Assembly (NCBI RefSeq): GCF_009758015.1
Contig: NZ_WSEL01000003.1
Span: 1,736,001-1,800,000 of the forward strand
Origin: Ramlibacter pinisoli
GTDB taxonomy: Bacteria; Pseudomonadota; Gammaproteobacteria; Burkholderiales; Burkholderiaceae_C
DNA length: 64,000 nt
Direction: 5' to 3'
The position numbers were made by a program, and so were the translations under genes. Positions 45,032 through 63,695 of this stretch are shown here, in pieces. The notes below the pieces were generated by a model, which did no database searches, was not told where the DNA came from, and saw nothing but the letters and a program-made list of their open reading frames with translations. Position 1 is the first letter of the stretch. Each line of letters begins with the position of its first letter.

Positions 45032-45856
45032 TCAATGGAACGAGCCGACCAGCGCCTTGAGCAGCAAGGCCCAGCCGTCCACGAGGACGAACACCAGGAT
45101 CTTCAGCGGAAGCGCAACCGTGGACGGGGGCAGCATCATCATGCCCAGGCTCATCAACGAAGCCGACACCACGAGATCGATGAGCAGGAACGGCAGCCAG
45201 ACGACGAAGCCGATCTGGAACGCAGCCCGCAGCTCCGACAGCATGAAGGCCGGGATGAGCTGCACGTTGCTCACCTCGGCCAGGCTGGCAGGCGGACGTG
45301 CATGCGACAGCTCCACCGTCAGCGCCAGGTCCTCCTCCCGGGTCTGTCGCACCATGAACTCGCGCAGCGGGCCGGCCCCCCGCTCATAGGCGGCGTCCAT
45401 GGCGAGTGTGCCGTCCATGAAGGGCTGGAAAGCCTGGTGGTTCACTTGGTGCAACACCGGGGCCATGGTGAAGAGCGTCAGGAACAGCGCCAGACCGATC
45501 ACCACCGGGTTGGGCGGCGTTTCCGGCATGCCGAGGGCGTGGCGCAGCATCGACAGCACGATGACGATCCGGAGAAAGGAGGTCAGGCAGACGAGCAGGG
45601 CGGGAAGAACCGCCAGCGCCGTCAGACCGAGCACGATGCGCAAGGCTTGCGACGTGCCCTGCTGCTGGCCCGGCGACGGCAGATCCGCCACCAGGCCCTT
45701 CCGCGCCGGCGTGCTGGTCTGCAAGCGAACTGCAGCCCGTTGCGCGCCGGGTCCCGCTCCTGGCACAGCTTCCTGCGGGGCCGCCGCTGCCCATCCGCCG
45801 AACGACAGCCAGGCGGCGACCGCCAGCCAGCCCAGGACGCGGCACCAGCGCCTCAT
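45032..45856 (-). CDS. fliP: Flagellar export gate protein FliP
   Basis: A 274-residue export-gate subunit with a cleavable signal peptide (residues 1-27) and a long periplasmic linker to about residue 70. Hallmarks: 'SFLRIVIVLSMLRHALGMPETPPNPVVIGLALFLTLFTMAPV' (about 100-140) and 'LIPAFMLSELRAAFQIGFVVWLPFLLIDLVVSASLMSLGMMMLPP' (C-terminal). It is longer than minimal FliP (about 245) because of the linker. The ATG overlaps the fliO stop (ATGA). With FliQ, FliR, FlhA and FlhB it forms the channel for hook and filament subunits. Confidence 0.95.
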   Translation of the reverse strand: MRRWCRVLGWLAVAAWLSFGGWAAAAPQEAVPGAGPGAQRAAVRLQTSTPARKGLVADLPSPGQQQGTSQALRIVLGLTALAVLPALLVCLTSFLRIVIVLSMLRHALGMPETPPNPVVIGLALFLTLFTMAPVLHQVNHQAFQPFMDGTLAMDAAYERGAGPLREFMVRQTREEDLALTVELSHARPPASLAEVSNVQLIPAFMLSELRAAFQIGFVVWLPFLLIDLVVSASLMSLGMMMLPPSTVALPLKILVFVLVDGWALLLKALVGSFH

Positions 45857-46290
45857 GCGGGCTCCGCAAATCCGCTTGCGCCCTGCCGTCGCGCCAGCAG
45901 GATGACCTGGCCCTCGGTGCAGCCGATCAGGAGTTCCTCGTCGTGCCAGCGCACGGCATGGACCGCGGCGCCCTTGCCGAGCATCTGGCTGGACAGCCGC
46001 TCGATGGCCGCGCGCCCCGTGCGGCCCCGGCGCGCCCCCAGCGCGCGCAGGCCACCGGACTGCAAGGCGACCAGCAGGCCGCCGCCCAGGCTCAGGCCGA
46101 GCACGAGGAGGACCGTGACGGCCGACACGTCGCTGACCGCAGGCTCGCCACGGCGCAAGGGCAAGGCAGCAGAGACCCGTGGGAGTTCCACCTGCGGTTC
46201 GGTGTCCGCTGCGTCCACCCCACGCGCCGGCGAGCAGCACAGGAACGCCGCCAACGCCGCGGCCAGCCAACCGGAATGCGCGCGCCGCAT
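45853..46290 (-). CDS. fliO: FliO-like flagellar export accessory protein
   Basis: A 145-residue protein with a signal peptide (1-27), a short periplasmic part, one membrane segment (about residues 56-78, 'AVTVLLVLGLSLGGGLLVALQ') and a small cytosolic domain ending 'VHAVRWHDEELLIGCTEGQVILLAR'. Size, topology and place between fliN and fliP identify it as FliO, which helps assemble the FliP ring. Sequence identity to known FliO is low, as usual. Its stop overlaps fliP. Confidence 0.8.
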   Translation of the reverse strand: MRRAHSGWLAAALAAFLCCSPARGVDAADTEPQVELPRVSAALPLRRGEPAVSDVSAVTVLLVLGLSLGGGLLVALQSGGLRALGARRGRTGRAAIERLSSQMLGKGAAVHAVRWHDEELLIGCTEGQVILLARRQGASGFAEPA

Positions 46291-46301: not shown

Positions 46302-46652
46302 CTAGATGCCCAGCGGCAACGGCAGTTCGGTGACGCGGACCGCGAAGCGATCCTCCACCGCGACGAGCTGGCCCCGGGCGACGACGCGGCCGTTCAAGAG
46401 CAGGTCCACCGGGGCGTCGAGCGTGCGATCGACGGGCAGCACCGCCTGCTCCCGGGCCCCCAGCAACTCGCCCACCGTAAGGACGACCTCGCCCACGCAG
46501 GCCTGCAGGCGAATGTCCACGGCGTGGAGTGGATTCACCGCGGGCGCCAACGCGACCGTGGCCTGCGGCTCGGCAGCTTCTTCCAGCGTGATGGTGTGCG
46601 CCGGCAGCGGCTCATCGATCAGCTCGATGCCGGGCCAGGTGTCTTGCGTCAT
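46302..46652 (-). CDS. fliN: Flagellar switch/C-ring protein FliN
   Basis: A 116-residue protein with the SpoA domain at the C-terminus: 'DIRLQACVGEVVLTVGELLGAREQAVLPVDRTLDAPVDLLLNGRVVARGQLVAVEDRFAVRVTEL' spans residues about 46-110 with the 'G..V...G..VAVEDRFAVRVTE' hallmark. The N-terminal 40 residues are acidic and variable. It forms the base of the C-ring with the FliM-like protein. ATG at 46652 overlaps the stop of the fliM-like gene (ATGA). Confidence 0.93.
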   Translation of the reverse strand: MTQDTWPGIELIDEPLPAHTITLEEAAEPQATVALAPAVNPLHAVDIRLQACVGEVVLTVGELLGAREQAVLPVDRTLDAPVDLLLNGRVVARGQLVAVEDRFAVRVTELPLPLGI

Positions 46653-47467
46653 GGGAACTCCTTGGGGACGGATGCGAGGGGTGCCAGCACGATGGCCTTT
46701 CGGTCGCCGCGCCGGGCCAGGTGCGCCGCGAAGCAGGGTCGGCCTTGCCCGTCGGTGACGGTGGCGGGCTGCTGCAGGCCGTGGTCGAGGCGCACGACGT
46801 CGTCGATGCGCAGCCCGGCCAACGCGCCGAGGTCGACCGTGCAGCCAGCGAGACGGACCTGCAATGCGAGACGCCGGTTGCGCAGCGCCTCATCCAGGCC
46901 CACCAGGGCCGCAGGCTCGGACCGTTGCGGTGCAACTCGGGGAATGAGGGGGTCGATTGCTTCGGCGGACAGCAGGAGCAACTGGCGACGCGGCGCCAGT
47001 GCCTGCTCGACCAGCACCGCGCCGGACCAGGGCGCCACGTCGTCCACCGTCGGTCCCCGGCTGGGCGATGGCGCCACTATCAGGCCGAGGAGGGACGCCA
47101 GCCGTGACTGCAGGTCGGCGGCGCACTGCCCTCCCAGCGCGGCAGCGAGCGGCCCCGCCGGCACGTCGCCCCACAGGATGCGGCGCAGGTCCGCACCCAG
47201 CATCGTGTCGCCCATCCACGCGCGGACCTCGCCGTCCGAGGTGGTGAGCGCCACCCAGGTGGCCAGGTGCAGGTCGGCCGCTCCGGCCGCTCGCGCCGTG
47301 CAGCCCCCGGCCGGAGCCGACAGGCCCCAGGCGAGCGACCACGCGGCCTGCACCGTGTCCAGGCGCTGGCAGGCGGACTGCAGCTGCGACTGGCTCCACC
47401 CGCGCAGGGGACGCCAGGCCGGGACGTGTGGCGCGCAGGCGCGGGCGGGACCCGCCGTGCCGCCCAT
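46649..47467 (-). CDS. fliM: FliM-like C-ring protein, short and without a CheY-binding N-terminus
   Basis: A 272-residue protein in the fliM position, before fliN. The C-terminal SpoA domain is recognisable ('VRLAGCTVDLGALAGLRIDDVVRLDHGLQQPATVTDGQGRPCFAAHLARRGDRKAIVL', residues about 203-262). The middle part is divergent from the CheC-like FliM domain. It is about 60 residues shorter than usual FliM and lacks the N-terminal LSQ-E-IDALL type peptide that binds CheY-phosphate; the start has instead a Pro/Trp-rich 'VPAWRPLRGW'. It resembles injectisome SctQ in this. It starts 2 bases after the hook gene stop. Confidence 0.78.
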   Translation of the reverse strand: MGGTAGPARACAPHVPAWRPLRGWSQSQLQSACQRLDTVQAAWSLAWGLSAPAGGCTARAAGAADLHLATWVALTTSDGEVRAWMGDTMLGADLRRILWGDVPAGPLAAALGGQCAADLQSRLASLLGLIVAPSPSRGPTVDDVAPWSGAVLVEQALAPRRQLLLLSAEAIDPLIPRVAPQRSEPAALVGLDEALRNRRLALQVRLAGCTVDLGALAGLRIDDVVRLDHGLQQPATVTDGQGRPCFAAHLARRGDRKAIVLAPLASVPKEFP

Positions 47468-47469
47468 GG

Positions 47470-48648
47470 CTACTTCGCCTTCATGTTGAGCAGCTCCTGG
47501 AGCATGTCGTTCGCGGTCGAGATGACTTGCGACGACGCCTGGTAGCCACGCTGCATCACCACCAGTTCGCTGAACTCGCGCGCCAGGTCGACGTTGGACA
47601 TCTCGAGCTGGCCCGCATGCACCGCGCCGAAGCCGCCGTCGCCGGCCGTTCCCAGTTCCCAGGGCTGGCCGCCCGCGGCGACAAAGCGATTGCCGCCGGC
47701 GCTCTCCGTGGCGTCGGCCGAACGCGCCCGCGCCAGCAGCAAGCGGGCGCCTTCGACCTCCTGGCCGTTCGAATAGGTCGCGACCAAAGCGCCGCGCGCG
47801 TTGAACGTCAGCTTGGTGAGGCTGCCGGGCGGGCGTCCGTCCTGGGCGGACATGGCCAGCGTCGAGAGATTGCCCGCCGCGTACGAGGTGACGTCGGCGG
47901 AGAAATCCAGGACGACCACCTGCGCCGCCTTGCCCGCCGGCGTGTAGGTGAAGCTCGGCTTGCCACTGGCGGCGTCGGGGCGGCCGTCGATGAACTGCAT
48001 CGTGGCCTCCCCGACGGTGGTGGCGCCGTCCAGCAGCTCCACCTTCCAGCTCCCGATGGCCTGGTCGTCCGTGCGGGTGAACTTCACCGCCAGTTCATGC
48101 GTCTCGCCCATGGCGTCATGCACGTGCACCGAGGGAATGGTCTGCGTCTCGACCGTGCTCGACAGGTTGCCGGCGAAGCGGGCGACCGCGGTGGGGGCGC
48201 CCGCCGTCGTCTTCAGGCCCAACAGCGAGAGCGGCGCGTCGACCCCGGCGGCATCCCGTCCCAGCACCAGAGCGCCGTTGGCGCGGTCGACCAGGCGGCC
48301 GTCCGCGTCGAACTGGAAATTGCCGGCGCGGGTGTAGCGCGTGCTGCCGTCCTCGGGCCGCAGGACGAAGAGGCCATCGCCATCGATGGCGAGGTCGAAC
48401 GGGTTGCCCGTGTCGCGCAGATCGCCCTGGCGCAGGTCGAGCTGCGTCCCCGTGGTCGCCAGTCCGTGCCCCAGCTGCGTGGCTCGTCCGCCGGCCTGAT
48501 CGGCGCCGGTGTAGAACAGGTCGGCGAACTGCAACGAGCTGGCCTTGTAGCCGGGCGTGTCCAGGTTGGCGGTGTTGTTGGCGATGACGCGCAGGCCGCG
48601 CGAATAGCCCTGCAGGCCGGTCATTCCCACGTGGATGGAATCGAGCAT
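47470..48648 (-). CDS. flgE: Flagellar hook protein FlgE
   Basis: A 392-residue axial protein. 'MTGLQGYSRGLRVIANNTANLDTPGYKASSLQFADLFYTG' (residues 9-48) is the hook/rod N-terminal helix with the ANNTANLDTPGYK motif, and the C-terminal 'LEMSNVDLAREFSELVVMQRGYQASSQVISTANDMLQELLNM' completes the coiled-coil D0 domain. 'GDGLFVLRPEDGSTRYTRAGNFQFDADGRLV' is typical. It forms the hook polymer exported through the channel. Length is near that of E. coli FlgE (402). Confidence 0.96.
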   Translation of the reverse strand: MLDSIHVGMTGLQGYSRGLRVIANNTANLDTPGYKASSLQFADLFYTGADQAGGRATQLGHGLATTGTQLDLRQGDLRDTGNPFDLAIDGDGLFVLRPEDGSTRYTRAGNFQFDADGRLVDRANGALVLGRDAAGVDAPLSLLGLKTTAGAPTAVARFAGNLSSTVETQTIPSVHVHDAMGETHELAVKFTRTDDQAIGSWKVELLDGATTVGEATMQFIDGRPDAASGKPSFTYTPAGKAAQVVVLDFSADVTSYAAGNLSTLAMSAQDGRPPGSLTKLTFNARGALVATYSNGQEVEGARLLLARARSADATESAGGNRFVAAGGQPWELGTAGDGGFGAVHAGQLEMSNVDLAREFSELVVMQRGYQASSQVISTANDMLQELLNMKAK

Positions 48649-48657
48649 GGGACGGCC

Positions 48658-49059
48658 TCAACGCACGGAGACGATGCGGCTGAGGTCCACGTCGGCCACC
48701 ACCGAGCCCGCCGTGGTGGTGATGCTCACCAGCGGGGACGTGCCTTGCAGCGACAGGCTCGAGACGACACCGGAAATGCTGCCGCTATCGCCGGTGGCGC
48801 TCACCGTCTTGCCGATCAGCCCGATGGACTGGAGGGCGGCCTGGTTCGCCACCAGCAGTTCCAGCTTGTCGTTCAGGCGTTGTGACTGCTCCAGCGACGT
48901 GAACTGCGCCATCTGGGCCATGAACGCCTGGTTGTCCATGGGCTTGAGCGGGTCCTGGTAGTTCAGCTGGGTCAGCAGGACCTTCAGAAAGTCCTGCAGG
49001 CCCATCGCCTGTCCGGCGGCGGAGGCCGCCGTGCCGCTGATCGCACCGAGTTCCATCAT
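48658..49059 (-). CDS. flgD: Hook cap protein FlgD, short form
   Basis: A 133-residue protein. The N-terminal 'MGLQDFLKVLLTQLNYQDPLKPMDNQAFMAQMAQFTSLEQSQRLNDKLELL' (residues 19-69) is the strongly conserved FlgD part that caps the growing hook. The rest ('IGLIGKTVSATGDSGSISGVV') is a small beta domain only; the usual FlgD (about 230) has an extra tudor/fibronectin portion that is missing. Starts at one of two adjacent ATG codons, 49059 or 49056. It overlaps the fliK-type gene's end. Confidence 0.93.
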   Translation of the reverse strand: MMELGAISGTAASAAGQAMGLQDFLKVLLTQLNYQDPLKPMDNQAFMAQMAQFTSLEQSQRLNDKLELLVANQAALQSIGLIGKTVSATGDSGSISGVVSSLSLQGTSPLVSITTTAGSVVADVDLSRIVSVR

Positions 49060-49808
49060 GGCTCCTGGTTGTGCCCGGCCGGGCCGGGCGGATGCAAGGG
49101 ACGCGAAGGCTTGATCCCGCCGCGATCGAGCAGGACGCCGTTCAAAACCACAGTGGCCAGCCTGTCCGGCAGGCCGCGCTGCAGGGCCGCCTGCAACCCG
49201 GGCTGCCGCAGCAACAGGTCGGCCACCCCGGCCGGAGCACCGAGCCAGATGTGCAGGCCATCGGGCTGGTGCTCCACGTGCACGTGCACGGAGCGGTGGG
49301 CCGGGTCGCCGGTCGCGGAGCGAGGCCGGGCCGGCGAAGCGCCCTCTTCACCGGGAACCGGCTCGGTGGGCACGCCGCGGGGACCGATGACGCCGGTGGT
49401 GCTGACGGTGGCCTGCTGCTTCGAAGCGAGGGTTCCGGGGCTCGATAGGCCAGCGCCTGTCCTGTCGGGGCGCGCGAGGCCGGGCGCGGTGGCAGGGAGT
49501 GGCGGCTTGCAGGTAGGCGCTGGCGTGGGCGACACGATCCCGGTGCCTTCTGCCGGTGTCCCGATGCCTTCCGCAGGTCCATTGCGGCGCGCCGTCGACA
49601 GGGCATGGACCCGGGGCATGCCAGCGTCCGACGCAGCGGACCGCGAGGCCACGTCGAAACCTGAATGGCCCGCCAGGGGCCCCCGGAACCAGGCCTCGCC
49701 TTGTGCCTTGTCGATCGCACGCTGCCAACCGCGGCAGACCGACACGCTGCCGGGCGCAAGAACCGGCAGCGGTGCACGGGGGGCGGGCATTGGCAAGACG
49801 GAGGTCAT
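49056..49808 (-). CDS. fliK: FliK-like hook-length control protein
   Basis: A 250-residue protein: a Pro/Ala/Thr-rich, disordered-looking N-terminal two thirds (the 'ruler') and a compact C-terminal domain at residues about 175-235 ('VHVHVEHQPDGLHIWLGAPAGVADLLLRQPGLQAALQRGLPDRLATVVLNG') resembling the FliK substrate-specificity switch domain. It is short compared with enteric FliK (405), which would fit a short hook. Both ends overlap neighbours by ATGA, between fliJ and flgD. Confidence 0.82.
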   Translation of the reverse strand: MTSVLPMPAPRAPLPVLAPGSVSVCRGWQRAIDKAQGEAWFRGPLAGHSGFDVASRSAASDAGMPRVHALSTARRNGPAEGIGTPAEGTGIVSPTPAPTCKPPLPATAPGLARPDRTGAGLSSPGTLASKQQATVSTTGVIGPRGVPTEPVPGEEGASPARPRSATGDPAHRSVHVHVEHQPDGLHIWLGAPAGVADLLLRQPGLQAALQRGLPDRLATVVLNGVLLDRGGIKPSRPLHPPGPAGHNQEP

Positions 49809-50278
49809 GACCGCTCCTGCGTTCTGCGGGCGACGATCCACGCAGCATCGGCAACGTTCCAGGCTTGGCGCGTGCGGTTGGCGAGGTGATCCGCAGCGTT
49901 GCGCTCCTGCGCCCGACGGACCATGTCGAGCTCCCGGTGCCGGGCTTGCAGCGCCAGGCGGCATTGGTCCGCAAGCGCCGCGCGCCGGGTCAGTTCCTGA
50001 TCGGACCGCCGCGCCTCGGCCGCCAGCCGGGCCAGGTGGTCCAGCGTGCGCCGATGCAGGACGGGGTCGGGCTGGATGGCGTGCGCGGACGACCACGCCA
50101 GAGCGGACGCCAAGCCCTCGCCGGCCACCCGCGCGGAGCAGCTGGCGGTGTCCGCTGCATGCCGGGCCTTCTGCAGCTCGATGCGGGCGGCGTCGAGCCG
50201 CCAGGCGCGCAGGAGCGCCAGCGATGCCAGCGCGCCCGCCTGGTCGGCCATCGGGGCCCGCGTCGACGACGGGCTCAT
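49805..50278 (-). CDS. fliJ: FliJ-like central stalk protein of the export ATPase
   Basis: A 157-residue protein, all-helical and rich in Ala, Arg, Gln and Glu, with long heptad-like stretches ('RAWRLDAARIELQKARHAADTAS', 'HLARLAAEARRSDQELTRRAALADQCRLALQARHRELDMVRRAQERNAADHL'). It has no strong family signature, but size, coiled-coil nature and place after fliI and before fliK are those of FliJ, the shaft that links FliI to FlhA. Start overlaps the fliI stop (ATGA). Confidence 0.78.
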   Translation of the reverse strand: MSPSSTRAPMADQAGALASLALLRAWRLDAARIELQKARHAADTASCSARVAGEGLASALAWSSAHAIQPDPVLHRRTLDHLARLAAEARRSDQELTRRAALADQCRLALQARHRELDMVRRAQERNAADHLANRTRQAWNVADAAWIVARRTQERS

Positions 50279-51594
50279 GCCGCGCCCCCGGTCGCCAGCA
50301 ATTCGCGCAGCTCCCGCAACGCGGTCGCGCGAGCGACGCCGCCTTCTGCCTGCCGCATCCACGCCAGCAGCTGCGGCTCCAGCGCCAGCGCGCGGTCGAG
50401 CGCCGGCTGCGCGCCCGGCTGGTAGGCGCCCAGGTCGACGAGTGGCCGGTTGCGATCGAGGAGCGCCAGCAGGTTGCGCGCGGCCTGCGCCGCTTCGCGC
50501 TCCGCCGGGTCGGCGAGGTGGTGCTGCAGGCGGCTGACGCTGCGCAGGACATCGATCGGCGGGAAATGGCCCTGCTGTGCCAGCTCCCGCGACAACACGA
50601 TGTGGCCGTCGAGCAGCGCCCGCAGGCTGTCCGCGACGGGTTCGTCGAGATCGCCGCCTTCGACGAGCACGGTCCACAGGGCCGTCACCGAGCCGCCGGA
50701 GGCATCGGTGCCGCAGCGCTCGCACAGGCCCGGAAGTTCGGCAAACACCGACGGCGTGTAGCCCCTGGCCGTGGCCGGCTCGCCCGATGCCAGCCCGATC
50801 TCCCGGCGTGCCATCGCCAGCCGCGTGACCGAGTCCATGGTCAGCACGACATGACGACCGGTGCGCGCGAATTGGCGGGCGATGTCGACCGCCGTGTGCG
50901 CGGCGCGCACACGCGCCAGCGCGGGCTGGTCGGAGGTGGCGACCACCACCACCGAACGCGCCAGGCCAGCCGGCCCGAGGTGCCGGTCGATGAACTCGCG
51001 CACCTCGCGGCCCCTTTCGCCGATGAGCGCGACCACGTTCACGTCGGCCTGCACGTGACGCGCCACCAGTCCCAGCAAGCTGCTCTTGCCGACGCCACTG
51101 CCGGCAAAGATGCCGACCCGCTGGCCGCGCCCGAGCGTCAGCAGCGCATCGATGACGCGGACGCCGGTTTCCAGCACCTGGTCGATCGGCGGACGGTCCA
51201 GCGGGTTGGTGTCCGGCTGCACCGAAACGGCTGCGGGCCGCGGGGCGGGCTCAGAGCCATCCAGCGGCTCCCCGAAGGCGTCGATCACGCGGCCCAGCAA
51301 TGCCGGGCCCGCCTGCACCGCCAGCGGAGCGTCGACCGCTACCACGGCGGCATCGGCACCGATGCCGTGCAGGGAACCGTAGGCGAGCAAGGTGCGCTCG
51401 TCGCCCTGGCACCCGACCACCTCCGCGAGGACAGCGGCTCCGCCGGACGCGGGCACGACACGGCACAACTGCCCGACCGCCACCGCGGGACCGAGCGAAC
51501 CGAGCGCCAGCCCCTGGATGCGGCAGACCCGGCCGGACCGGGCCTGCAACGGGGCTTCGCGCAGGGTGGCCAGGCAACTGCGCAGCACGCTCAT
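50275..51594 (-). CDS. fliI: Flagellum-specific ATPase FliI
   Basis: A 439-residue F1-beta-like ATPase that powers protein export. Walker A AGSGVGKS is at residues 164-171 ('GIFAGSGVGKSSLLG'), the 'ALIGERGREVREFIDRHLG' loop follows, and Walker B is 'HVVLTMDSVTRLAMARREIGLASGEPATARGYTPSVFAELPGLCERCG' with the export-ATPase signature. ATG at 51594 overlaps the fliH stop. The protein is full length and all catalytic motifs are intact. Confidence 0.96.
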   Translation of the reverse strand: MSVLRSCLATLREAPLQARSGRVCRIQGLALGSLGPAVAVGQLCRVVPASGGAAVLAEVVGCQGDERTLLAYGSLHGIGADAAVVAVDAPLAVQAGPALLGRVIDAFGEPLDGSEPAPRPAAVSVQPDTNPLDRPPIDQVLETGVRVIDALLTLGRGQRVGIFAGSGVGKSSLLGLVARHVQADVNVVALIGERGREVREFIDRHLGPAGLARSVVVVATSDQPALARVRAAHTAVDIARQFARTGRHVVLTMDSVTRLAMARREIGLASGEPATARGYTPSVFAELPGLCERCGTDASGGSVTALWTVLVEGGDLDEPVADSLRALLDGHIVLSRELAQQGHFPPIDVLRSVSRLQHHLADPAEREAAQAARNLLALLDRNRPLVDLGAYQPGAQPALDRALALEPQLLAWMRQAEGGVARATALRELRELLATGGAA

Positions 51595-52322
51595 GCAGCG
51601 CCCTCCAGCGCGCGACCAGCCGCTTCGCGATGCCGGATCCTGCCCGCCAGCAGGGCCGCCTTGAACGCATCCACGACGACCTCGAGCCGCGCGTCCAGCG
51701 TCTGCGCCGCCGCCCGCACCATGCAACCGCCCAACGCCACCTGCGGGTCCGCGACCCAGGACAGGGACGCCCCGGCCGCGTGCGAGGCGTTGTCACCTTG
51801 CAGGCTCACCGCATCGGCCGGATGCACGTGGACCCGGATCGCACCTGCTGACGGGTGCTGCGCCAGCAGACCATCGACTTGCGCCCGCACGCCCTCGGCC
51901 GACGCCAGTGCAGGCCCCACGACGCGGCACAGTGCATCCATGCACAGCACGACCAGTTCGTCTTCGGCAGCGGACAGCACGCCGGCCAGCACCCGCTCGA
52001 GCGACTGCGCCAGCGCCGTCAGCCGCTCCTGCTGTTCCTGGCCGCGGCGCTGCACCTCCTCGCGTGCCGAAGCCAGTTCCTCCTGGCCTTGCGCACGACC
52101 TTCCGCCAGCCCCCGGACCAGGCCCTGCTGGTGGCCACGCTGAACGCCCGCCTCGTGGCCCTGCCGCGCTCCCTCGTCCAGCCCGCGCCGCAGCCCCTCC
52201 TCGTAGCCGTTGCGCCCGGCATCGGCGGGCGGCAGGGCTTCCGGAACCGGACGCAGCCCGGGAAGCAGGCGCACAGCATCCCCCTGCCAGGCAACGGAGC
52301 GCAGCACCGCGGCGGCATTCAT
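51591..52322 (-). CDS. fliH: FliH-like regulator of the export ATPase
   Basis: A 243-residue protein. It has the hallmark N-terminal glycine-repeat helix: from residue about 39, a run of G-x3-G units ('GYEEGLRRGLDEGARQGHEAG', 'GHQQGLVRGLAEGRAQG') that packs two helices of a FliH dimer. A coiled coil follows ('EVQRRGQEQQERLTALAQSLERVL') and then a V-ATPase E-subunit-like domain ('IRVHVHPADAV', 'LGGCMVRAAAQTLDARLEVVVDAFKAAL'). It anchors FliI to the C-ring via FliN. Overlaps fliI and the preceding gene. Confidence 0.92.
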   Translation of the reverse strand: MNAAAVLRSVAWQGDAVRLLPGLRPVPEALPPADAGRNGYEEGLRRGLDEGARQGHEAGVQRGHQQGLVRGLAEGRAQGQEELASAREEVQRRGQEQQERLTALAQSLERVLAGVLSAAEDELVVLCMDALCRVVGPALASAEGVRAQVDGLLAQHPSAGAIRVHVHPADAVSLQGDNASHAAGASLSWVADPQVALGGCMVRAAAQTLDARLEVVVDAFKAALLAGRIRHREAAGRALEGAA

Positions 52323-52855
52323 GGACGGCCCCTGCGCCGGAAGATCTCCCGCCAGCGGCCGCCGGGCGGTACTGGCGGCATGGCGGCACCGCTGGCCGGC
52401 AGTGCCGCGGCGACCGCCTCAAGCAGCGCGGCATCGAGCGCAGGCGCGGGCGGCAAGTCGGCAGGAGCATCGGGCCCGTCGGCCGCGTGCACGCCCAGTT
52501 CGCGAGCGACGGCGGCGCGCCAGGGCCAGTCGTGCAGGTGCAGCAGGCGGATCACGAGGCCAGGCGGCTCGCTGCGCAACCGGCTGACCAGCCTGGCGAC
52601 ACCTTCTGCATCCAGCCGCTCCAGGCGTTCAGTGGGGGACAGCACGGATGCCGGCCGGTGCTGGCGCAGCACCTCCTGCAGCAGGTCATGGTCTGGCGGG
52701 ATGCGCAGGGTCTGCAGTTCCCTCAGAAGATCGGCCAGCACGCCGCGCGGCCCCGGCTCGAGGCGATCCAGCAACCAGTCGCGGTCGTGCGCCGGCAGCC
52801 CATGGGCCAGCAACGCAGCCTGGCGGGCCGGCAGGGACAGCAGGTCGACGTTCAT
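52319..52855 (-). CDS. 178-residue protein in the fliG position, not a normal FliG
   Basis: A 178-residue, helix-rich protein encoded between fliF and fliH, where fliG is expected; both ends overlap the neighbours by ATGA. FliG is about 330 residues with three domains; this is half that. A possible trace of the FliG middle domain is 'RLVSRLRSEPPGLVIRLLHLHDWPW' (residues about 91-115), similar in pattern to L-x2-E-HPQ-x2-A-x2-L. The torque helix with its charged residues and the C-terminal domain are not recognisable. The C-terminus ends 'GRWREIFRRRGRP', very basic. In position and size it also equals SctK of injectisomes, encoded between SctJ and SctL. Confidence 0.75.
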   Translation of the reverse strand: MNVDLLSLPARQAALLAHGLPAHDRDWLLDRLEPGPRGVLADLLRELQTLRIPPDHDLLQEVLRQHRPASVLSPTERLERLDAEGVARLVSRLRSEPPGLVIRLLHLHDWPWRAAVARELGVHAADGPDAPADLPPAPALDAALLEAVAAALPASGAAMPPVPPGGRWREIFRRRGRP

Positions 52856-54300
52856 GGGTCGCTCCTCGGCACGGCGACCGCCGTGGCACCGGCCGGCTCG
52901 CCCGCGAGCCAAGCTCGCACCTGCCCCAAGGCCAGCTGGCGCTGGGGTTCGGTCAGATCGCGCGGATCGACCGCGGCCACCGTCGGGCGGCGACGCATCC
53001 AGAGCAGGACCGAGGCCAGGAGAGCGGCGGCCGTCACGGCAACGCCCGCGCCCCACCCCATCGAAACGGCCGGATCGGCGTGGTCTCCGCTGCGCGGGAC
53101 GTCGGCAGCAGCGAGCGCCAGGCCGGCCGGATCGGGCGTGCGCGGCGGCGCGATCGCGGCCGCGTCGAAAGCCTGGACCAGCACCGTGTCGCCACGCTCC
53201 ACCGAAGCGCCAACCGCCGCGCCGACCAGCTGGCGCACCTGGTCCTGCTGGACCTGCGACAAGGCCTGGCGCACGACGGCGACCACGTGGAGGCGCCGCA
53301 CCGAGCCGGGCTGGCTGACGACCTGCTCCAGCCGGCGTCCCGCCTGGTAGTCGGCATCGCGCTGCATGCTGCTGCCACGCAGGGAGCGCCCGTCGCCCCG
53401 GCCGTCCGGGGCGGCGCTGTCGCGGGTCGACTCACGTTCGCGCACCAGGACGCCCGTGGCCGGACCACCCTTGCCATCGGGGGCCGGCAGCACGTCCTCG
53501 GTGGTCGTTCGCACCTGGTCCATGTCCAGGGTGGCGTCGACGCTGGCCAGCGCCTGACCCGGTCCCAGTGCGCGCTCGAGCACGGCCCCCGCCTTGCGGG
53601 ACAGGTAGCTCTCGATGTCGCGCTTGAGGTCCAGGGATGCCGCAGGGCCAGCAGCACTGTCGGTGGCGGCCCCGCGGCTGAGTGCCACGCCGTGGTCGTC
53701 CACGATCGTCACTTCGTGCGCGGCCAGCCCCGGGACGGCCGCGGCCAGCAGGCGCTGGATGCCGGTGACCTGTTCGCCCCGCAGTGCCTGGTTCTGGCGC
53801 AGCGCGAGGGTCACGGCCGCCTTGGGCACCGCCGAGGCCGGCTTGAACAGGCCCTGCTCCGGCAGCGCGAGGTGCACCCGGGCCTGCCGCACCTCGGGGA
53901 ACGAGAGGATGGTGCGCGTCAGCTCCCCCTGCAGCGCGCGCTGGTAGTTGATCTTCTGCGCGAACTCGGTCATGCCGAAGTCGGCGTTGTTGAACAACTC
54001 GAAGCCGACCGCGCCATGCAGTGGCAGGTCCTTGCCCATCAACTTCAGCCGGGTGGCATGCACCTGCGCCCGGTCGACCAGCAGGGTCGTGCCGCCCGCG
54101 GCCACCGTGTAGGGCACCTTGGCCTTGTCGAGTTCAGCCGCCAGCAAGGCCGCGTCCTGCGGACCCAGGTCGGCGAACAGCACGGCCGGTTCGGGGCGCC
54201 AGAGCCACCAGGTGCCCAGGCCGGCGGCCAGCAACAGGACCAGGCCGATGCCGACACCCACCCGCGCCTGCCGCTGCAATCCTTGCCACCACTGTGTCAT
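52852..54300 (-). CDS. fliF: MS-ring protein FliF
   Basis: A 482-residue protein. TM1 is at about residues 14-33 ('VGVGIGLVLLLAAGLGTWWLW'), the ring-building motifs RBM1-3 follow, including 'GFELFNNADFGMTEFAQKINYQRALQGELTRTILSFPEVRQARVHLALPE' (about 96-145), and TM2 at about 415-435 ('GWGAGVAVTAAALLASVLLWM'). The cytosolic tail after TM2 is about 45 residues ('LTEPQRQLALGQVRAWLAGEPAG') and retains a helix like that which binds FliG. It is about 70 residues shorter than enteric FliF. ATG at 54300; followed directly by the fliG-position gene. Confidence 0.94.
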   Translation of the reverse strand: MTQWWQGLQRQARVGVGIGLVLLLAAGLGTWWLWRPEPAVLFADLGPQDAALLAAELDKAKVPYTVAAGGTTLLVDRAQVHATRLKLMGKDLPLHGAVGFELFNNADFGMTEFAQKINYQRALQGELTRTILSFPEVRQARVHLALPEQGLFKPASAVPKAAVTLALRQNQALRGEQVTGIQRLLAAAVPGLAAHEVTIVDDHGVALSRGAATDSAAGPAASLDLKRDIESYLSRKAGAVLERALGPGQALASVDATLDMDQVRTTTEDVLPAPDGKGGPATGVLVRERESTRDSAAPDGRGDGRSLRGSSMQRDADYQAGRRLEQVVSQPGSVRRLHVVAVVRQALSQVQQDQVRQLVGAAVGASVERGDTVLVQAFDAAAIAPPRTPDPAGLALAAADVPRSGDHADPAVSMGWGAGVAVTAAALLASVLLWMRRRPTVAAVDPRDLTEPQRQLALGQVRAWLAGEPAGATAVAVPRSDP

Positions 54301-54323: not shown

Positions 54324-54632
54324 TCAGAGCTGCATCCGCATCACGTCCTGGTAGGCCTCCAGGACGCGGTTGCGTGCTTGCAGCAGCAGCTGGAACGCGA
54401 TGCGGCCCTCTTCCATCCGCACCATCACCTCGTGCAGGTTGCGGGACTCGCCCAGCGCCAGGGCCTGCAGGTCCGACTGGCTGGCGGCCAGGCGCTGGTC
54501 GACGGCCCGCAAGCCTTCGGTGACCAGCCGGCCGAACGGCAGTTCGTCGCCCCCGACGACTGGCGCTGGCTGGAAAGCGGCCGGCTGCACCTCGTCGTGC
54601 AGCCCGATCGCGGCAATGGCGTCCGGGCTCAT
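54324..54632 (-). CDS. fliE: Rod base protein FliE
   Basis: A 102-residue protein that joins the MS ring to the rod. The C-terminal part 'SQSDLQALALGESRNLHEVMVRMEEGRIAFQLLLQARNRVLEAYQDVMRMQL' (residues about 51-102) matches FliE throughout, including the terminal '(A)YQDVMRMQ(V/L)'. The N-terminal half is variable as usual. ATG overlaps the flgC stop. Confidence 0.94.
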   Translation of the reverse strand: MSPDAIAAIGLHDEVQPAAFQPAPVVGGDELPFGRLVTEGLRAVDQRLAASQSDLQALALGESRNLHEVMVRMEEGRIAFQLLLQARNRVLEAYQDVMRMQL

Positions 54633-55054
54633 GCGCTTCTGCCGATCTCGAGCGTCTTGAGGGCGAGCGCCCGCGCCGTGGTGAGCGCCGCCACATTGGC
54701 CTCGTAGGAACGCAATGCGCCCGTGAGCGTGACCATTTCGGTTGCGGTGTCCACGCCCGGGTAGCGCACGAAGCCTTCGGCATCGGCGAGCGGATGCCCG
54801 GGCTCGTGCAGGCGGCGCACGGGGCCCGAAGCGGGGACGACCTGGACCTCGATGGCTTCGGGCAGGCGCTCGTGGACCAGCGACGGGAAGCTGGCGGCGC
54901 CCGCGCGGGCGACCACGCGCAGGGGCTGGAAGCCGGATCCATTCGGGTCCTGCACGGTGTTGGCGTGCGCCAGGTTGGTCGCGGCTGTTTCGACACGCAT
55001 GCGCTCGACGGACATGCCGGCCGCACTGATCGCGAATGCCTGCAGGTAATCCAT
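54629..55054 (-). CDS. flgC: Proximal rod protein FlgC
   Basis: A 141-residue rod protein. 'AFAISAAGMSVERMRVETAATNLAHANTVQ' (residues 6-35) is the N-terminal D0 helix with the conserved ATNLAHANT motif, and the C-terminal 'MVTLTGALRSYEANVAALTTARALALKTLEIGR' closes it. 'RYPGVDTATEMV' is the typical 'YPNVD...EM' segment. It is co-translated with fliE. Confidence 0.95.
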   Translation of the reverse strand: MDYLQAFAISAAGMSVERMRVETAATNLAHANTVQDPNGSGFQPLRVVARAGAASFPSLVHERLPEAIEVQVVPASGPVRRLHEPGHPLADAEGFVRYPGVDTATEMVTLTGALRSYEANVAALTTARALALKTLEIGRSA

Positions 55055-55057
55055 GGA

Positions 55058-55441
55058 TCACTTCCTCCCTTCGCTCGCCGCCAGCGCAAGCACGCCGAGA
55101 TGGCGGGACAGCCCTTGCAGCAAGGCCTGGTAGTGGACGGCATTGCGGGCCAGTTGCGTCATCTGCTCGTCCACCGACTGGAGGACGGGTTGGCCCGCGG
55201 CGTCGAGGGCCGGCTCGAGTTCGGGATGCAGCGCGGCGACGGTGTCGCGGCGCAGGACGCCGGCGGTGGCGAGTTCCTCCCGGGCCTGGTCGAGCTGCGA
55301 TTCGAAGGCCAGCGCCAGGGGCGTCGTGCCCTGCACGCCGGCGCGCGAAATGTTGGCCGCGATCGCCTGGTGGCGCAGGCTGGCGGCGTCCAGTGCCACC
55401 GACAGCACCGCGGTCGTGACGGCTTCGACGGAACCACTCAT
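55058..55441 (-). CDS. flgB: Proximal rod protein FlgB
   Basis: A 127-residue rod protein. N-terminal helix 'AVLSVALDAASLRHQAIAANISRAGVQGTTPLALAFESQL' (residues 11-50) follows the FlgB pattern with ANI-x-N replaced by ANISRAGVQG; the C-terminal 'VDEQMTQLARNAVHYQALLQGLSRHLGVLALAASEGRK' matches FlgB ('E...M..N...Y......'). Located upstream of flgC as usual. Confidence 0.93.
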   Translation of the reverse strand: MSGSVEAVTTAVLSVALDAASLRHQAIAANISRAGVQGTTPLALAFESQLDQAREELATAGVLRRDTVAALHPELEPALDAAGQPVLQSVDEQMTQLARNAVHYQALLQGLSRHLGVLALAASEGRK

Positions 55442-55451
55442 GCGGCCGCCC

Positions 55452-56573
55452 TCACTGGACCACCAGTTCGGCGTGCAGCGCGCCGGCGGCCTTGACGGCC
55501 CGCAGGATGGAAATCATGTCGCGCGTGCTGGTCTTCAGGCGGGCGAGCGACTGCACCAGGTCGGCCACTGTGCCGCCGGTGGCGAGATAGCCGACCCCGG
55601 CCGGCTCTTCGACGTCGACGGTGGTGTTGGTCAGCACCGCGGTGCCCACGCCGGACCCGACGTGCGAGACGAACGCCGGTTGCGACGCCGTGACCTGGCT
55701 GGCGATGGTGACCTTCAGGTCGCCATGGGAGATGGCCACGCGCGACAGGCGGACGTCGCCGCCCGAGACCACGGTGCCGGTGCGCTCGTTGACCACCACC
55801 CGCGCACGCCGGTCGGGTTCGACGGTGACGTCCTCGAGCCGGGCCAGGAAGCCCACCAGCTCCGTGCGCAGCGCCGCCGGCACCTCCACCTCGATCCCCG
55901 ATGCGTCGCGGGCCCGCGCCAGGCCCGGGCCGAGCTGGCCATTGATGGCCGCCGCGACCCTGTTGGCGGTCGTGTAATCGGGTTCGGACAGGACGAAGGT
56001 GACGTGGCTGGGCGGCGTGGGCGCCGGCAGGGCCAGGCCGACCTCCACCGTGGCGCCGTTCGGGATGGAGCCCGCCGTGGGATGGTTCTTCTGCACCACG
56101 TTGCCGTTGGCGTCGTAGCGGTGGCCGCCAACCGACACGGGGCCCTGCGCGAGCGCATAGACCCGGCCGTTGGGGCCGCGCAGCGAGGTGAGCAGGAGAT
56201 TGCCGCCCACCAGGCTGCGGGCGTCGCCACTGGACGCGACCGCCACGTCCAGCGTGTCGCCTTCGCGCGCGAACGTCGGCAGCGACGCACTCACCACCAC
56301 CACGGCGACGTTGCGGCTGCTCACCTGGTCGGGCGCGATGGTCAGGTTGAACTGCGCCAGCACGTTGGCAAGCGCTTGGCGCGAGGCGCGGTTGCCAGGT
56401 GCGTCGCCCGTGCCGGCCAGGCCGGTGACGATGCCGGTGCCCACCAACACGTTCTCGCGCCAGCCCTGCAGCTTGCCCAGGTCCTTGACGCGCAGCGGGG
56501 CAGCCTGGGCCGCGGCCACCAGCAGCACGGGGACGGCCATCAAGACGGCCCTCGAAAGTCTGAAGCAGCTCAT
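55452..56573 (-). CDS. flgI: P-ring protein FlgI
   Basis: A 373-residue periplasmic ring protein with a signal peptide (1-25, ...AQA-APL). Hallmarks: 'VKDLGKLQGWRENVLVGTGIVTGLAGTGD' (about residues 29-57), 'NVAVVVVSASLPTFAREGDTLDVAVASSGDARSLVGGNLLLTSLRGPNGRVYALAQGPVSVGG' and the C-terminal 'VADLVQSLARLKTSTRDMISILRAVKAAGALHAELVV'. Intact and of usual length, so a rod bushing in peptidoglycan is expected. ATG at 56573 directly starts the signal peptide. Confidence 0.96.
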   Translation of the reverse strand: MSCFRLSRAVLMAVPVLLVAAAQAAPLRVKDLGKLQGWRENVLVGTGIVTGLAGTGDAPGNRASRQALANVLAQFNLTIAPDQVSSRNVAVVVVSASLPTFAREGDTLDVAVASSGDARSLVGGNLLLTSLRGPNGRVYALAQGPVSVGGHRYDANGNVVQKNHPTAGSIPNGATVEVGLALPAPTPPSHVTFVLSEPDYTTANRVAAAINGQLGPGLARARDASGIEVEVPAALRTELVGFLARLEDVTVEPDRRARVVVNERTGTVVSGGDVRLSRVAISHGDLKVTIASQVTASQPAFVSHVGSGVGTAVLTNTTVDVEEPAGVGYLATGGTVADLVQSLARLKTSTRDMISILRAVKAAGALHAELVVQ

Positions 56574-56574
56574 G

Positions 56575-57147
56575 TCAGAAGCCCAGCGCATCGACCAACC
56601 GCCGCCACCAGGACCGGCGCGAGCGGTCGGAGACGTCGCCCTCGCCCACATAGGTGATGCGCCCGTCGGCAATGCGGGTCGACTGGACGAGGTTGGCATC
56701 GCTGATGTCGGCCGGACGCACCAGGCCTTCCAGCGTCACCTGCTGCAGTTCGTCGTTGACCTGGATCGACTGGGTGCCAGCGATGCGCAGCTGGCCCGAC
56801 GGCAGCACTTCGCGGACGGACACGGTCACGGTGGTGAGCAGCCGGTTGGTTCTCTGCGTGCGTCCACCGCCGTCGAAGTCACCCGCCACGTTCAGCGTGG
56901 TCTGCCCCACTGACGTGCCACCGTGGGCCAGTTCGGCGCGCAGGTTGTTGGTGCGCCGGGTGCCGGTGTCGGCGCTGGCCACGGCCGTGGTGTTCTCGTA
57001 GACCTGGACCGTGAGGACGTCGCCCGGGCGGTAGGCCTTGTTGTCGGCAGTGAGGCCGCGCCAGGCCTCCTCGCGGTACAGGCTCTCGGCCTGCACCGGC
57101 CACGCGGTTGTCGCCAGGACGGTGACTGCCAAGGCGATGCGTTTCAT
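56575..57147 (-). CDS. flgH: L-ring protein FlgH, without a lipobox cysteine
   Basis: A 190-residue protein. 'SLYREEAWRGLTADNKAYRPGDVLTVQVYENTTAVASADTGTRRTNN' (residues 22-68) and the C-terminal 'EGLVRPADISDANLVQSTRIADGRITYVGEGDVSDRSRRSWWRRLVDALGF' are clearly FlgH. FlgH is normally a lipoprotein; here the signal peptide MKRIALAVTVLATTAWPVQA ends in a signal-peptidase-I site and there is no cysteine, so it would not be lipidated. It is slightly short for the family. Start overlaps the flgA stop (ATGA). Confidence 0.94.
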   Translation of the reverse strand: MKRIALAVTVLATTAWPVQAESLYREEAWRGLTADNKAYRPGDVLTVQVYENTTAVASADTGTRRTNNLRAELAHGGTSVGQTTLNVAGDFDGGGRTQRTNRLLTTVTVSVREVLPSGQLRIAGTQSIQVNDELQQVTLEGLVRPADISDANLVQSTRIADGRITYVGEGDVSDRSRRSWWRRLVDALGF

Positions 57148-57968
57148 CGGTCGAGCTCCAAAAGCTCCGGGCCGATCACACGCGCCGACAGGGGCGCCGG
57201 CGCGGAGGCGGACCGAACCAGCACCCGGTCGCCTGCCTGGCCATCCTGCAGGACCTCGACCCGCCGCTCCGCCACGACCAGGCCGGTTCCGGCGCGCAGG
57301 GTGGCGGAATGGCCCCGCTCCACGGCCGGTGCCCGCGCATCCGGTGAGGCGCCGCGCCGCGGTACCTCGGGTGCGGATCGGGTCGGCGATGCCATCGGCG
57401 CCACGGCCACGTGCGCCTGCGGATCGGCCTCCAGCCGCTCGATGGACACGGCCACTTCGCGCACGACCTGCCCGCCACTGCGGATTTCGACCCACACCAA
57501 TTGCCTGCGACTGGCGGCCGGCAGCATCGAGGCGCGGGCCGTGAGCGTCACCTCGCCGGACGTAACACGCACGTCGCGCGGAGGCCGCGTCAGGCGCGCT
57601 GGCCCCGGCACCGCACCCAAGGCAGCGCGCGCCACCGCCTCGCCGGTGACAAGGGCTGTCGCGGATTCGATATCGCAGGCCAGCGCCCCCGACCACTGCA
57701 CGGCCGTGCCGGCCAGCTGCGGCAAGCGGCGCAGCGACGCCTCGATGTCGCTTCGCTGCACGCTTTGCGACCGGGCCGAGACTGCGGGGCGGCCCAAGGG
57801 CCAGTCGGCGACAGCTCGCAGCAGCGAGAGGTCGTCGGAGGCCAGCCGGGCCAGCTGGCCCATGTGCAGCGGCCCGGATGCCGCCTCCACCCGCGGCCGC
57901 AGGTCGATGCGCAATTCCGCCCCACACGCGGGGGCGGCCAGCAGACCGGAGAGCACGACCAGGCGCAT
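57144..57968 (-). CDS. flgA: P-ring assembly chaperone FlgA
   Basis: A 274-residue periplasmic protein with a short signal peptide (about 1-16, 'LLAAPACGA'). The C-terminal SAF-like domain 'SATLRAGTGLVVAERRVEVLQDGQAGDRVLVRSASAPAPLSARVIGPELLEL' (about residues 220-272) is the FlgA/CpaB hallmark ('G..G..I.V.n...g..l.a.V'). The N-terminal part is divergent. The start overlaps the flgG stop by one base (TGATG). It helps FlgI polymerise around the rod. Confidence 0.9.
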   Translation of the reverse strand: MRLVVLSGLLAAPACGAELRIDLRPRVEAASGPLHMGQLARLASDDLSLLRAVADWPLGRPAVSARSQSVQRSDIEASLRRLPQLAGTAVQWSGALACDIESATALVTGEAVARAALGAVPGPARLTRPPRDVRVTSGEVTLTARASMLPAASRRQLVWVEIRSGGQVVREVAVSIERLEADPQAHVAVAPMASPTRSAPEVPRRGASPDARAPAVERGHSATLRAGTGLVVAERRVEVLQDGQAGDRVLVRSASAPAPLSARVIGPELLELDR

Positions 57969-58729
57969 CACCGGCGCAGCCCGTTGACCAGGCCCAGCAT
58001 CTCGTCGGACGCCTGCACGACCTTGACGCTGGCCTCGTATGCGCGTTGGGCCACCATGAGCTGGACCATCTCCTCCACCAGCTTGACGTTCGATCCTTCC
58101 AGGTAGCCCTGCGCCAAGGTCCCGGCGCCCTCCTCGCCCGGCCGCGTGGCCTGCGGCTCGCCGGACGCTTCGGTGGCCCGGTAGACATTGCCCCCTTGGG
58201 GCAGGAGCTCTTGCGCGTTGCCGAACCGCACCAGTTCCAGCTGCCCGGCCTCCGCCAGCGCCGATTGCCCGGCGACCCGGACCTGGACCCGCCCGGTGGC
58301 GGAGATGACGATGGCTTCGGCGTTGTCGGGAATGGCGATGCCCGGCTTCAGGGGCAGGCCCGCCTGCGTGGCGAGCTGGCCGTCGGCATTCACCTTCAAC
58401 GTGCCGCCGCGGGTGTACGCGCGGCTCCCGTCCGGCATCGCGATCTCCAGGAAGCCGTCGCCCTGGATCGCGAGGTCGAGCGGCGCGTCCGTCTTGCGCA
58501 GTTCGCCGGGATCGAACAGCTTGCCCGCCGAGGTGGCCGTCACGCCGAGCGTCGTGGCTGCCTGGGCGCCCGCGCCGTCCAGGAGCGCCCGGCCGACGAG
58601 GTCGGTGAAGACGACCCGCGTCTTCTTGTAGGCCGGCGTGTTGACGTTGGCCAGGTTGTTGGCGATGGCATCGACCTGCAGTTGCTGGGCGTGCATGCCG
58701 GTGGCGCCGATGGCCAGGGCGTTGGTCAT
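57968..58729 (-). CDS. flgG: Distal rod protein FlgG
   Basis: A 253-residue rod protein. 'ALAIGATGMHAQQLQVDAIANNLANVNTPAYKKTRVVFTDL' (residues 4-44) and the C-terminal 'LEGSNVKLVEEMVQLMVAQRAYEASVKVVQASDEMLGLVNGLRR' are the strong FlgG pattern with ANNLANVNT and the EMV-Q-R-AYE box. 'LDLAIQGDGFLEIAMPDGSRAYTRGGTLKVNADGQL' is typical. It is the normal length (260). Confidence 0.96.
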   Translation of the reverse strand: MTNALAIGATGMHAQQLQVDAIANNLANVNTPAYKKTRVVFTDLVGRALLDGAGAQAATTLGVTATSAGKLFDPGELRKTDAPLDLAIQGDGFLEIAMPDGSRAYTRGGTLKVNADGQLATQAGLPLKPGIAIPDNAEAIVISATGRVQVRVAGQSALAEAGQLELVRFGNAQELLPQGGNVYRATEASGEPQATRPGEEGAGTLAQGYLEGSNVKLVEEMVQLMVAQRAYEASVKVVQASDEMLGLVNGLRR

Positions 58730-58746: not shown

Positions 58747-59484
58747 TCAGGACATCTCGCCGAGCCGCCGGATGGCATTGCCCAGCATCTCGTCGTAGCC
58801 CAGCCCGACTTTCTGCAGGGTCTCGGCATGGCGCATCGCCTGCACCAGTTGCACCATCTCGCGCGCCGGGTCGACGTTCGAGTTCTCCAGGTGACCTTGC
58901 CGGACCTCGGCCTGCAGGGCGCCAGCGGTCTCGGGTTCGACCAGCAGCCGGACCAGTCCCTGACCGAGGCGTTCCACGGGCGCTGAGGCCGGGACCTGGA
59001 CCACCTTCAGCTGCGCGACCGCGTCTGCCAGGCGACGGCTCGTGGTGGTGCCCGGTGCCGCATCGAAGATGCGCCCCTGGGTGTCGATCACCGGGTTGCT
59101 GGACGTGAGCCGGATCTCACCGCCGACTCCCATCACGGCGTGGCCCTGCGCCGTGACCAGCCGGCCCAGCGCATCGACCCGGAACTCGCCCTGGCGCGTG
59201 TAGGCCGGCCCGCGGTCGGTGCGGACCTCGAACCACCCGGGGCCGGCGAGCGCGACATCCAGTGCGCGCCCCGTGGAGCGCAGCGTTCCTGGCCGGGCAT
59301 CCAGATGAACGCCACCGGCCAGAACCGGTGCGCCGGCATCGATCCTGCGCGCGAAGCCCGCGCTGGCCGTCACCTCGCGCTTGAATGCCGGCGTCTGCAC
59401 GTTCGCCAGGTTGATCGCGACCTGGTCGAGGCGGGCCATGTCGGCTTGCAGGCCCTGGAGCGTGAGTTGGAGGATGGGCGCCAC
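58747..59484 (-). CDS. flgF: Proximal/distal rod protein FlgF
   Basis: A 245-residue rod protein. N-terminal 'LQGLQADMARLDQVAINLANVQTPAFKREV' (residues about 9-38) and C-terminal 'GHLENSNVDPAREMVQLVQAMRHAETLQKVGLGYDEMLGNAIRRLGEM' are axial-protein D0 helices; 'ALDVALAGPGWFEVRTDRGPAYTRQGEFRVDALGRLV' is typical. Placed before flgG as usual, so FlgF is the best name. It starts 13 bases after flhA's stop. Confidence 0.9.
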   Translation of the reverse strand: MAPILQLTLQGLQADMARLDQVAINLANVQTPAFKREVTASAGFARRIDAGAPVLAGGVHLDARPGTLRSTGRALDVALAGPGWFEVRTDRGPAYTRQGEFRVDALGRLVTAQGHAVMGVGGEIRLTSSNPVIDTQGRIFDAAPGTTTSRRLADAVAQLKVVQVPASAPVERLGQGLVRLLVEPETAGALQAEVRQGHLENSNVDPAREMVQLVQAMRHAETLQKVGLGYDEMLGNAIRRLGEMS

Positions 59485-63428: not shown

Positions 63429-63695
63429 CTAGAGCAGCGAGGGGATGCGCGACCAGAGCTGGACGTGGTACTGGCAGAGCAAGCGGAGCATCCAAGGCCC
63501 GAAGGCCACCAGCGCGACACCTGCTGCCACCAGTTTCGGCACGGCGCTCAGCGACATGTCCTGGACCTGCGTCACGACTTGCAGCAGGCCGATCCCCAGC
63601 CCCACCAGCATGGTGATCCCCAGGATCGGCAGGCTCGCGAGCAGCCCGGTCCAGAGCAGATCCGCCGTCACCTTCAGCACCCAATCACCCGTCAT
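63429..63695 (-). CDS. fliQ: Export gate protein FliQ, first gene of the operon
   Basis: An 88-residue protein with two membrane segments (about residues 14-38 and 52-75) and the family pattern 'LPILGITMLVGLGIGLLQVVTQVQDMSLSAVPKLVAAGVAL'. ATG at 63695 follows a strong GGGAGGA site. It is the first gene of the 26-gene leftward unit; the promoter must lie in the 300 bases to the right. Confidence 0.95.
   Translation of the reverse strand: MTGDWVLKVTADLLWTGLLASLPILGITMLVGLGIGLLQVVTQVQDMSLSAVPKLVAAGVALVAFGPWMLRLLCQYHVQLWSRIPSLL

Follow-up and report, generated by a model that had tools for sequence, protein, structure and literature searches.

The 64,000-nucleotide stretch of DNA analysed here (the window; Ramlibacter pinisoli, contig NZ_WSEL01000003.1, positions 1,736,001 to 1,800,000) holds a cluster of 26 flagellar-type genes, all open and all on the minus strand, which runs from fliQ (63695) to a tetratricopeptide repeat (TPR) gene (43053) in the order fliQR, flhBA, flgFGAHIBC, fliEF, X, fliHIJK, flgDE, fliM'NOP, fliA, tpr. 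Gene X (52319..52855), standing where fliG is expected, is an intact open reading frame (ORF) of 178 amino acids (aa) from ATG to stop that overlaps the fliF stop by 4 bases and the fliH start by 4 bases. Its neighbours are confirmed by profile: fliF (MS ring, 482 aa; 52852..54300) matches Pfam YscJ_FliF at 1.3e-54 and fliH (51591..52322) matches Pfam FliH at 3.6e-13. The 178-residue gene that the sequence-only reading had placed between fliF and fliH is therefore real.

Searched alone against Pfam and NCBIfam, X matches no model up to E 10, and a PDB sequence search with it returned plasminogen chains only (E about 0.9). Among 16 members of the X family, Pfam FliG_M matches three (best E 6e-4, below the cut-off; the single member with a listed score reaches 17.1 bits, the cut-off being 25), so that the faint middle-domain pattern described earlier holds up, though weakly; FliG_N matches two members only, also weakly (best 0.22). 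In structure comparison FliG holds the first three places. The VIA alignment lays residues 7-162 of X onto residues 7-192 of FliG, and the EPP of X aligns onto the EHPQ of FliG_M, the X motif being EP(P) and not EHPQ. Conversely, the X family profile matches normal FliG in the class-level genome search described below. X is too short to include the torque domain, FliG_C. These several weak but agreeing tests make us confident that X is a FliG reduced to its N and middle domains, from which the torque-bearing C domain has been lost.

The rest of the genome (5.5 Mb, 99.98% complete) was searched for a motor and a filament. FliG_C, Flagellin_N and MotB_plug each gave no match, while four flagellated control genomes matched each time; a split fliG with its C domain encoded elsewhere, or the full-length fliG elsewhere that had been proposed as a check, is thereby ruled out. 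The search for a filament covered Flagellin_N (FlgK and FliD were not searched genome-wide). Four MotA_ExbB matches were rejected as stators because their neighbours, read by eye as TolR, TonB/ExbD, leuS and lpxK, make them look TolQ/ExbB-like. Because FliG tops the structure comparison and the genome has neither FliG_C nor a MotB plug, the earlier suggestion of a reduced FliG in a non-rotating C-ring gains support. We infer with high confidence that the system has no torque domain and does not rotate.

The sequence-only reading had also considered that X might be an adaptor of the SctK type, which in injectisomes links the SctJ side to the sorting platform; on that view the cluster would be an injectisome-like system with flagellar parts. 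Size and position are similar, and FliP (45032..45856) passes the broad EscR/YscR/HrcR subfamily cut-off. However, ordinary flagella have the order F-G-H-I-J-K as well, which therefore does not favour SctK, FliP scores above the flagellar FliP threshold but below that of the SctR (yscR) equivalog, and it is FliG that comes first in the fold comparison. Genes for P and L rings, rod and hook are present, and the 26 cluster proteins match no secretin model (secretin was not searched genome-wide). No SctK match appeared in the Pfam scans of the 16 members, the PDB sequence searches or the VIA and Foldseek lists, none of which is a direct comparison or implies exclusion. The adaptor idea is thus not shown, and we regard it as very unlikely.

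The C-tail of FliF, LTEPQRQLALGQVRAWLAGE, is similar to the tail with which normal FliF binds FliG, and it keeps a V..W helix like that one. FliM' (46649..47467) has a CheC-like middle domain and a SpoA C-domain, as FliM does. FliM carries a CheY-binding peptide at its N-terminus; in FliM' of the window only about 22 residues precede the first domain, with low predicted local distance difference test (pLDDT) values and no CheY-binding-peptide motif by eye, and an LLS.[EQ].S-like start is kept by L040, L042 and L044 among six aligned relatives. FliN (46302..46652) matches FliMN_C at 1.8e-17. We propose that X retains two domains, one that holds the FliF tail and one that holds FliM, and has lost the third, which meets the stator. 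It would hold a reduced C-ring of FliM' and FliN under the MS ring, which could serve as a fixed docking and sorting platform for the flagellar-type export gate.

A search of 197 relatives gave X matches in 24 genomes, so X is not a chance ORF. Two loci, L032 (the sole match of G004) and L033 (a second match of G056), were dropped since no other cluster protein matches in either 3.3-kb locus, leaving 23 genomes. In these the X proteins measure 161-209 aa, and each is encoded immediately after a FliF frame whose tail is conserved. They share R-x-A-A-L, D-R-x-W-L-L, E-L-x-x-L-G-I-P, then E-P-P and W-P-W and, close to the basic C-terminus, a W. When 12 selected genomes, deliberately including six that carry the giant gene described below, were searched by profile, G050 was added and the number of X genomes rose to 24. 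Further afield, 399 genomes drawn from the order yielded 13 matches, of which 11 were accepted (G273 and G276 were dropped by eye as spurious). Another 360 drawn from the class yielded ten: the window, three strong matches (G812, G776 and G733; E between 2e-21 and 7e-29) and six weak matches. The six comprise three normal FliG proteins (two nearly identical), one MgtE-like protein (G636) and two apparently wrong-frame matches (G574, G633).

FliG_C was found in 108 and flagellin in 109 of the 197 relatives. Both are absent from 17 of the 24 X genomes and both present in the other seven (G025, G046, G138, G142, G149, G172, G193); X systems therefore mostly occur alone, and otherwise beside a normal flagellum. 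Variovorax paradoxus DS1452 carries two copies of the X cluster (L038 and L041) on different contigs.

By tblastn, 11 named loci show the same gene set; three of them lie on short contigs, and the frames of R. terrae L037 are broken. Gene order in the relatives rests on tblastn because gene calling by codon GC (guanine-cytosine) content mis-called several genes; the fast-evolving fliJ, fliK, fliO and fliM' were missed by tblastn in some contexts. The cluster, with rod, P and L rings, hook, export gate, ATPase, FliM', FliN and sigma factor, also occurs in other Comamonadaceae, in other families of the order and in other orders of the class. The fliQR-flhBA block of G172 is found at the opposite end. 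A FliF tree built from roughly the final 300 residues of 25 X-type and 13 normal sequences (some long branches, unrooted for want of an outgroup) places the X type on one side of a single branch (support 100/100), apart from normal flagella.

This distribution bears on whether the cluster could be a decaying flagellum, a remnant after the loss of motility in which X is a truncated pseudogene. The absence of flagellin, MotB plug and FliG_C from the genome would fit, as would R. terrae, which is described as having neither a flagellum nor gliding motility (PMC9705899) and whose cluster copy looks broken. Yet all 26 cluster genes of the window are open, the same gene set recurs in distant families, X length and motifs are similar in 23 genomes, and the FliF split holds even for G193 and G149, which have both FliF types. 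Decay is therefore highly improbable. In R. terrae H242 itself (L037), cluster proteins match in short segments and the FliF frame is only 256 aa, reflecting assembly errors or decay.

Most of the remaining cluster genes are likewise confirmed by profile, several below the curated cut-off. The export gate comprises fliQ (63429..63695) and fliR (62628..63425), both confirmed by profile, flhB (61540..62628; profile), which keeps the NPTH motif that we take to be its self-cleavage site, flhA (59498..61543; FHIPEP 1.5e-232), the fliP gene given above and fliO (45853..46290; NCBIfam FliO 2e-6, below cut-off). The fliI ATPase (50275..51594) is over the FliI/YscN subfamily cut-off and, among the matches listed (25 of 38 families), under every FliI and SctN equivalog cut-off. 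Rod and ring genes are flgF (58747..59484; FlgF 9e-44, below cut-off), flgG for the distal rod (57968..58729; rod/hook models and position), flgA (57144..57968), flgH for the L ring (56575..57147) and flgI for the P ring (55452..56573), these three by profile, flgB (55058..55441; NCBIfam FlgB 1e-8, below cut-off), flgC (54629..55054; Flg_bbr_C 8.8e-9 and position) and fliE (54324..54632; profile). The hook is represented by flgD, its cap (48658..49059; NCBIfam FlgD 5e-29, below the curated cut-off), and the 392-aa flgE (47470..48648; Pfam Flg_bbr_C, LlgE_F_G_D1 and FlgE_D2). Proteins of 157 aa (49805..50278; no NCBIfam match) and 250 aa (49056..49808; no Pfam or NCBIfam match) were assigned to fliJ and fliK by order alone. 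A fliA-like sigma factor gene (44242..45024; FliA_WhiG 5.6e-26, below the curated cut-off, and Sigma70_r4) and the gene for a 392-aa TPR protein (43053..44231), homologues of which lie behind fliA in other clusters, complete the set. Beyond the fliQ end of the window, L002 9532-17180 holds a 1,934-aa frame followed by genes resembling, by eye, a type I secretion ABC transporter, fusion protein and outer membrane protein.

In some relatives three further genes stand beside the cluster: one for a TPR protein of about 200 aa, one for a protein of about 125 aa, and a giant ORF. The N-terminus of the giant (first 129 residues) matched in 26 of the 197 relatives, 25 of them accepted, and in 16 of the 399 order genomes, 14 accepted; the matches in G145 and G334 were dropped (E about 1e-4). 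Seventeen giants were read, four of them cut by the end of a stretch; the 13 with both ends in hand span 4,048-5,314 aa. Residues 1-2400 of the R. pallidus giant are matched in all 16 others, residues 2401-4200 in 8-16 of the 16 and the last 400 in one. All ten giants scanned against Pfam carry RHS_repeat and two carry LysM, and three of the ten end in nuclease domains (GH-E, AHH, Tox-HNH-HHH). DUF6531 is present in 3 of 9. No PAAR domain was reported in the N-terminal 900 aa of nine giants or in the whole G027 giant. The ORFs downstream of six giants matched SUFU, which we take to denote immunity, and Imm26 over the cut-off, and Imm11 and DUF6392 below it; two matched nothing. Judged from sequence, RHS repeats, variable C-terminal tips and a downstream immunity-like gene correspond to the layout of Rhs polymorphic toxins.

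The genome of the window has a smaller Rhs protein of its own (L107; C3 about 1,187,060-1,192,735, about 1,525 aa), encoded at a distance of some 600 kb from the cluster. The small TPR gene and the 125-aa-type gene lie upstream of it in divergent orientation, and a lipoprotein-like ORF follows downstream. One genome, G138, has four matches of the giant N-terminus, and in the order set open frames of 7,719 and 7,112 aa lie at such matches in G365 and G395.

Giant and X, an association that the sequence-only reading did not notice, occur together in 20 of the 24 X genomes among the relatives (19 of 23 without G050) and in 9 of 11 in the order set; the Fisher statistics on these counts ignore kinship, the two sets share genomes, and the genus size of 60 is approximate. 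Among 22 contexts with flanks (11 + 10 + Variovorax PDNC026; L038-L042 and L044, which end at or near the tpr gene, were left out), drawn from eight families, the giant lies in the same stretch as the cluster in nine: G027, G172, G193, G812 (by a piece at the stretch end), G776, G733, G502, G504 and PDNC026. Homologues of the TPR gene of the cluster also stand beside unlinked giants in G047, G025, G021 and G011 (L113, L114, L120, L121). The TPR proteins weakly resemble SycD-type chaperones, far below the cut-off.

We scanned the regions upstream of the giants with a sigma-28 consensus. Of 24 regions, that of G812 gave no giant start (stretch end); for the other 23 the best site averaged 8.9. 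GC-matched windows averaged 7.7, with 8.3 the highest value in 1000 draws, and shuffles likewise 7.7, with 8.2 the highest of 200. A narrower form, TAAA-N14-16-NNNGATGT, chosen after seeing the sites, stands upstream of 11 of 23 giants (control mean 0.7, maximum 3), and ten of the 11 belong to the genus of the window; the candidate promoter reads CTAAAC...GATGTACT. Two copies stand back to back in G027, G046 and G049. The motif has no match in the window, and the cluster's own promoters therefore do not carry that form.

We infer from this linkage and co-occurrence that the giant Rhs proteins are, on balance, the cargo. The machine would build rod, P and L rings and hook, with neither filament nor motor, and its late substrates would be the giant Rhs/YD proteins. 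The TPR proteins would serve as the chaperones that deliver them, and the sigma factor encoded in the cluster would drive their expression from the promoter-like motif. With their variable tips the giants may act on other bacteria, the small downstream gene protecting the producer. It is also possible, if rather unlikely, that a non-rotating exporter carries other cargo, such as a hook-like attachment appendage or other proteins, and that the giants leave by a type VI secretion system (T6SS) or another route and share the genomes for reasons of ecology. The giant is unlinked in the genome of the window, ten genomes have a giant without a detected X, and an appendage has been reported for R. 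pallidus (PMC9731981). On the other side stand the nine linked contexts and the co-occurrence, the TPR homologues beside unlinked giants in four genomes, and the PAAR scans. In G003, G004 and G021 the giant occurs without detected X, FliG_C or flagellin, adjoined by TPR genes in G004 and G021, which may reflect another export route or a lost cluster.

Several observations weigh against an exporter of giant toxins. Besides the ten genomes with a giant and no detected X, five have X and no giant. R. tataouinensis is said to lack flagellar genes (PMC3164672), and R. terrae H242, with its seemingly broken copy, is described as lacking a flagellum (PMC9705899). Monotrichous flagella were reported by transmission electron microscopy (TEM) for R. 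pallidus HM2 (PMC9731981), which conflicts with the absent flagellin match. That report could mean that the system rotates with an unrecognised torque protein and stator, the observed "flagellum" being its product; given that the genome of the window has no FliG_C, MotB plug or flagellin match and that its four MotA-family matches look TolQ/ExbB-like, we consider this extremely improbable. HM2 (L043/G027) itself has neither a flagellin nor a FliG_C match, and what TEM showed may be the hook itself in an elongated form, some different appendage or an error. That the machine is of type III, derived from a flagellum, motorless and equipped with a FliG that lacks its C domain is in our view well supported, and the fuller description, a non-rotating machine of this kind exporting giant polymorphic Rhs toxins, is probable.

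With the flagellar switch complex (FliG/FliM/FliN) and its surroundings the cluster shares gene order, rod, P and L rings, hook, export gate, the FliF tail, a FliG N and middle-like fold and the FliM middle fold; it differs in having no FliG C domain, flagellin or MotB plug, a shortened FliM N-terminus and its own FliF branch. Injectisomes have a sorting platform of SctK, SctQ and SctL. The arrangement proposed here would likewise place a platform that does not rotate beneath an ATPase-driven export gate for protein delivery, but it has flagellar P and L rings, rod and hook where injectisomes have secretin and needle, and its folds are FliG-like and FliM-like. The Myxococcales non-flagellar type III secretion system of Abby and Rocha 2012 (PMC3459982) also derives from the flagellum without motility parts; it is reported to lack FlgBCDEK, FliEG, FlgH and MotAB, whereas the window cluster retains a reduced FliG together with FlgBCDE, FliE, FlgH and FlgI. 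Enterobacterial flag-2 loci have 39 conserved flagellar genes, and the cargo genes of one strain include Imm26 and the gene for an Rhs protein of 1556 aa (PMC6993521). That Rhs gene lies beside a T6SS VgrG in a single strain, according to the same paper, whereas the present system is motorless and its giant Rhs proteins recur in several families. T6SS-delivered Rhs toxins (e.g. PMC11461821) share the RHS shell, variable toxic C-terminus and downstream immunity-like gene; here the proteins read whole reach 4,048-5,314 aa, have no reported PAAR and are linked to a flagellar-type export cluster. Searches of open-access literature gave, among the results listed, no account of this cluster with Rhs cargo; subscription papers and preprints lay outside that scope, and novelty is unproven.

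There is a reasonable, if not strong, case that the cluster represents a further kind of type III secretion in addition to those of flagella and injectisomes, in which a FliG without C domain fixes a hook-basal body that has no motor. Present in several orders of the class and controlled by its own FliA-like sigma factor, it would fire giant Rhs toxins at neighbouring bacteria or display them. A FliG without torque domain separates, in a natural system, the two jobs of the C-ring as export platform and as motor, and the cluster would exemplify, in extant bacteria, the transition from flagellum to secretion machine postulated by models of type III secretion evolution. If the Rhs proteins are indeed the cargo, type III secretion gains a class of antibacterial toxins of several thousand residues, and the passage of such chains through the narrow FliPQR pore becomes testable.
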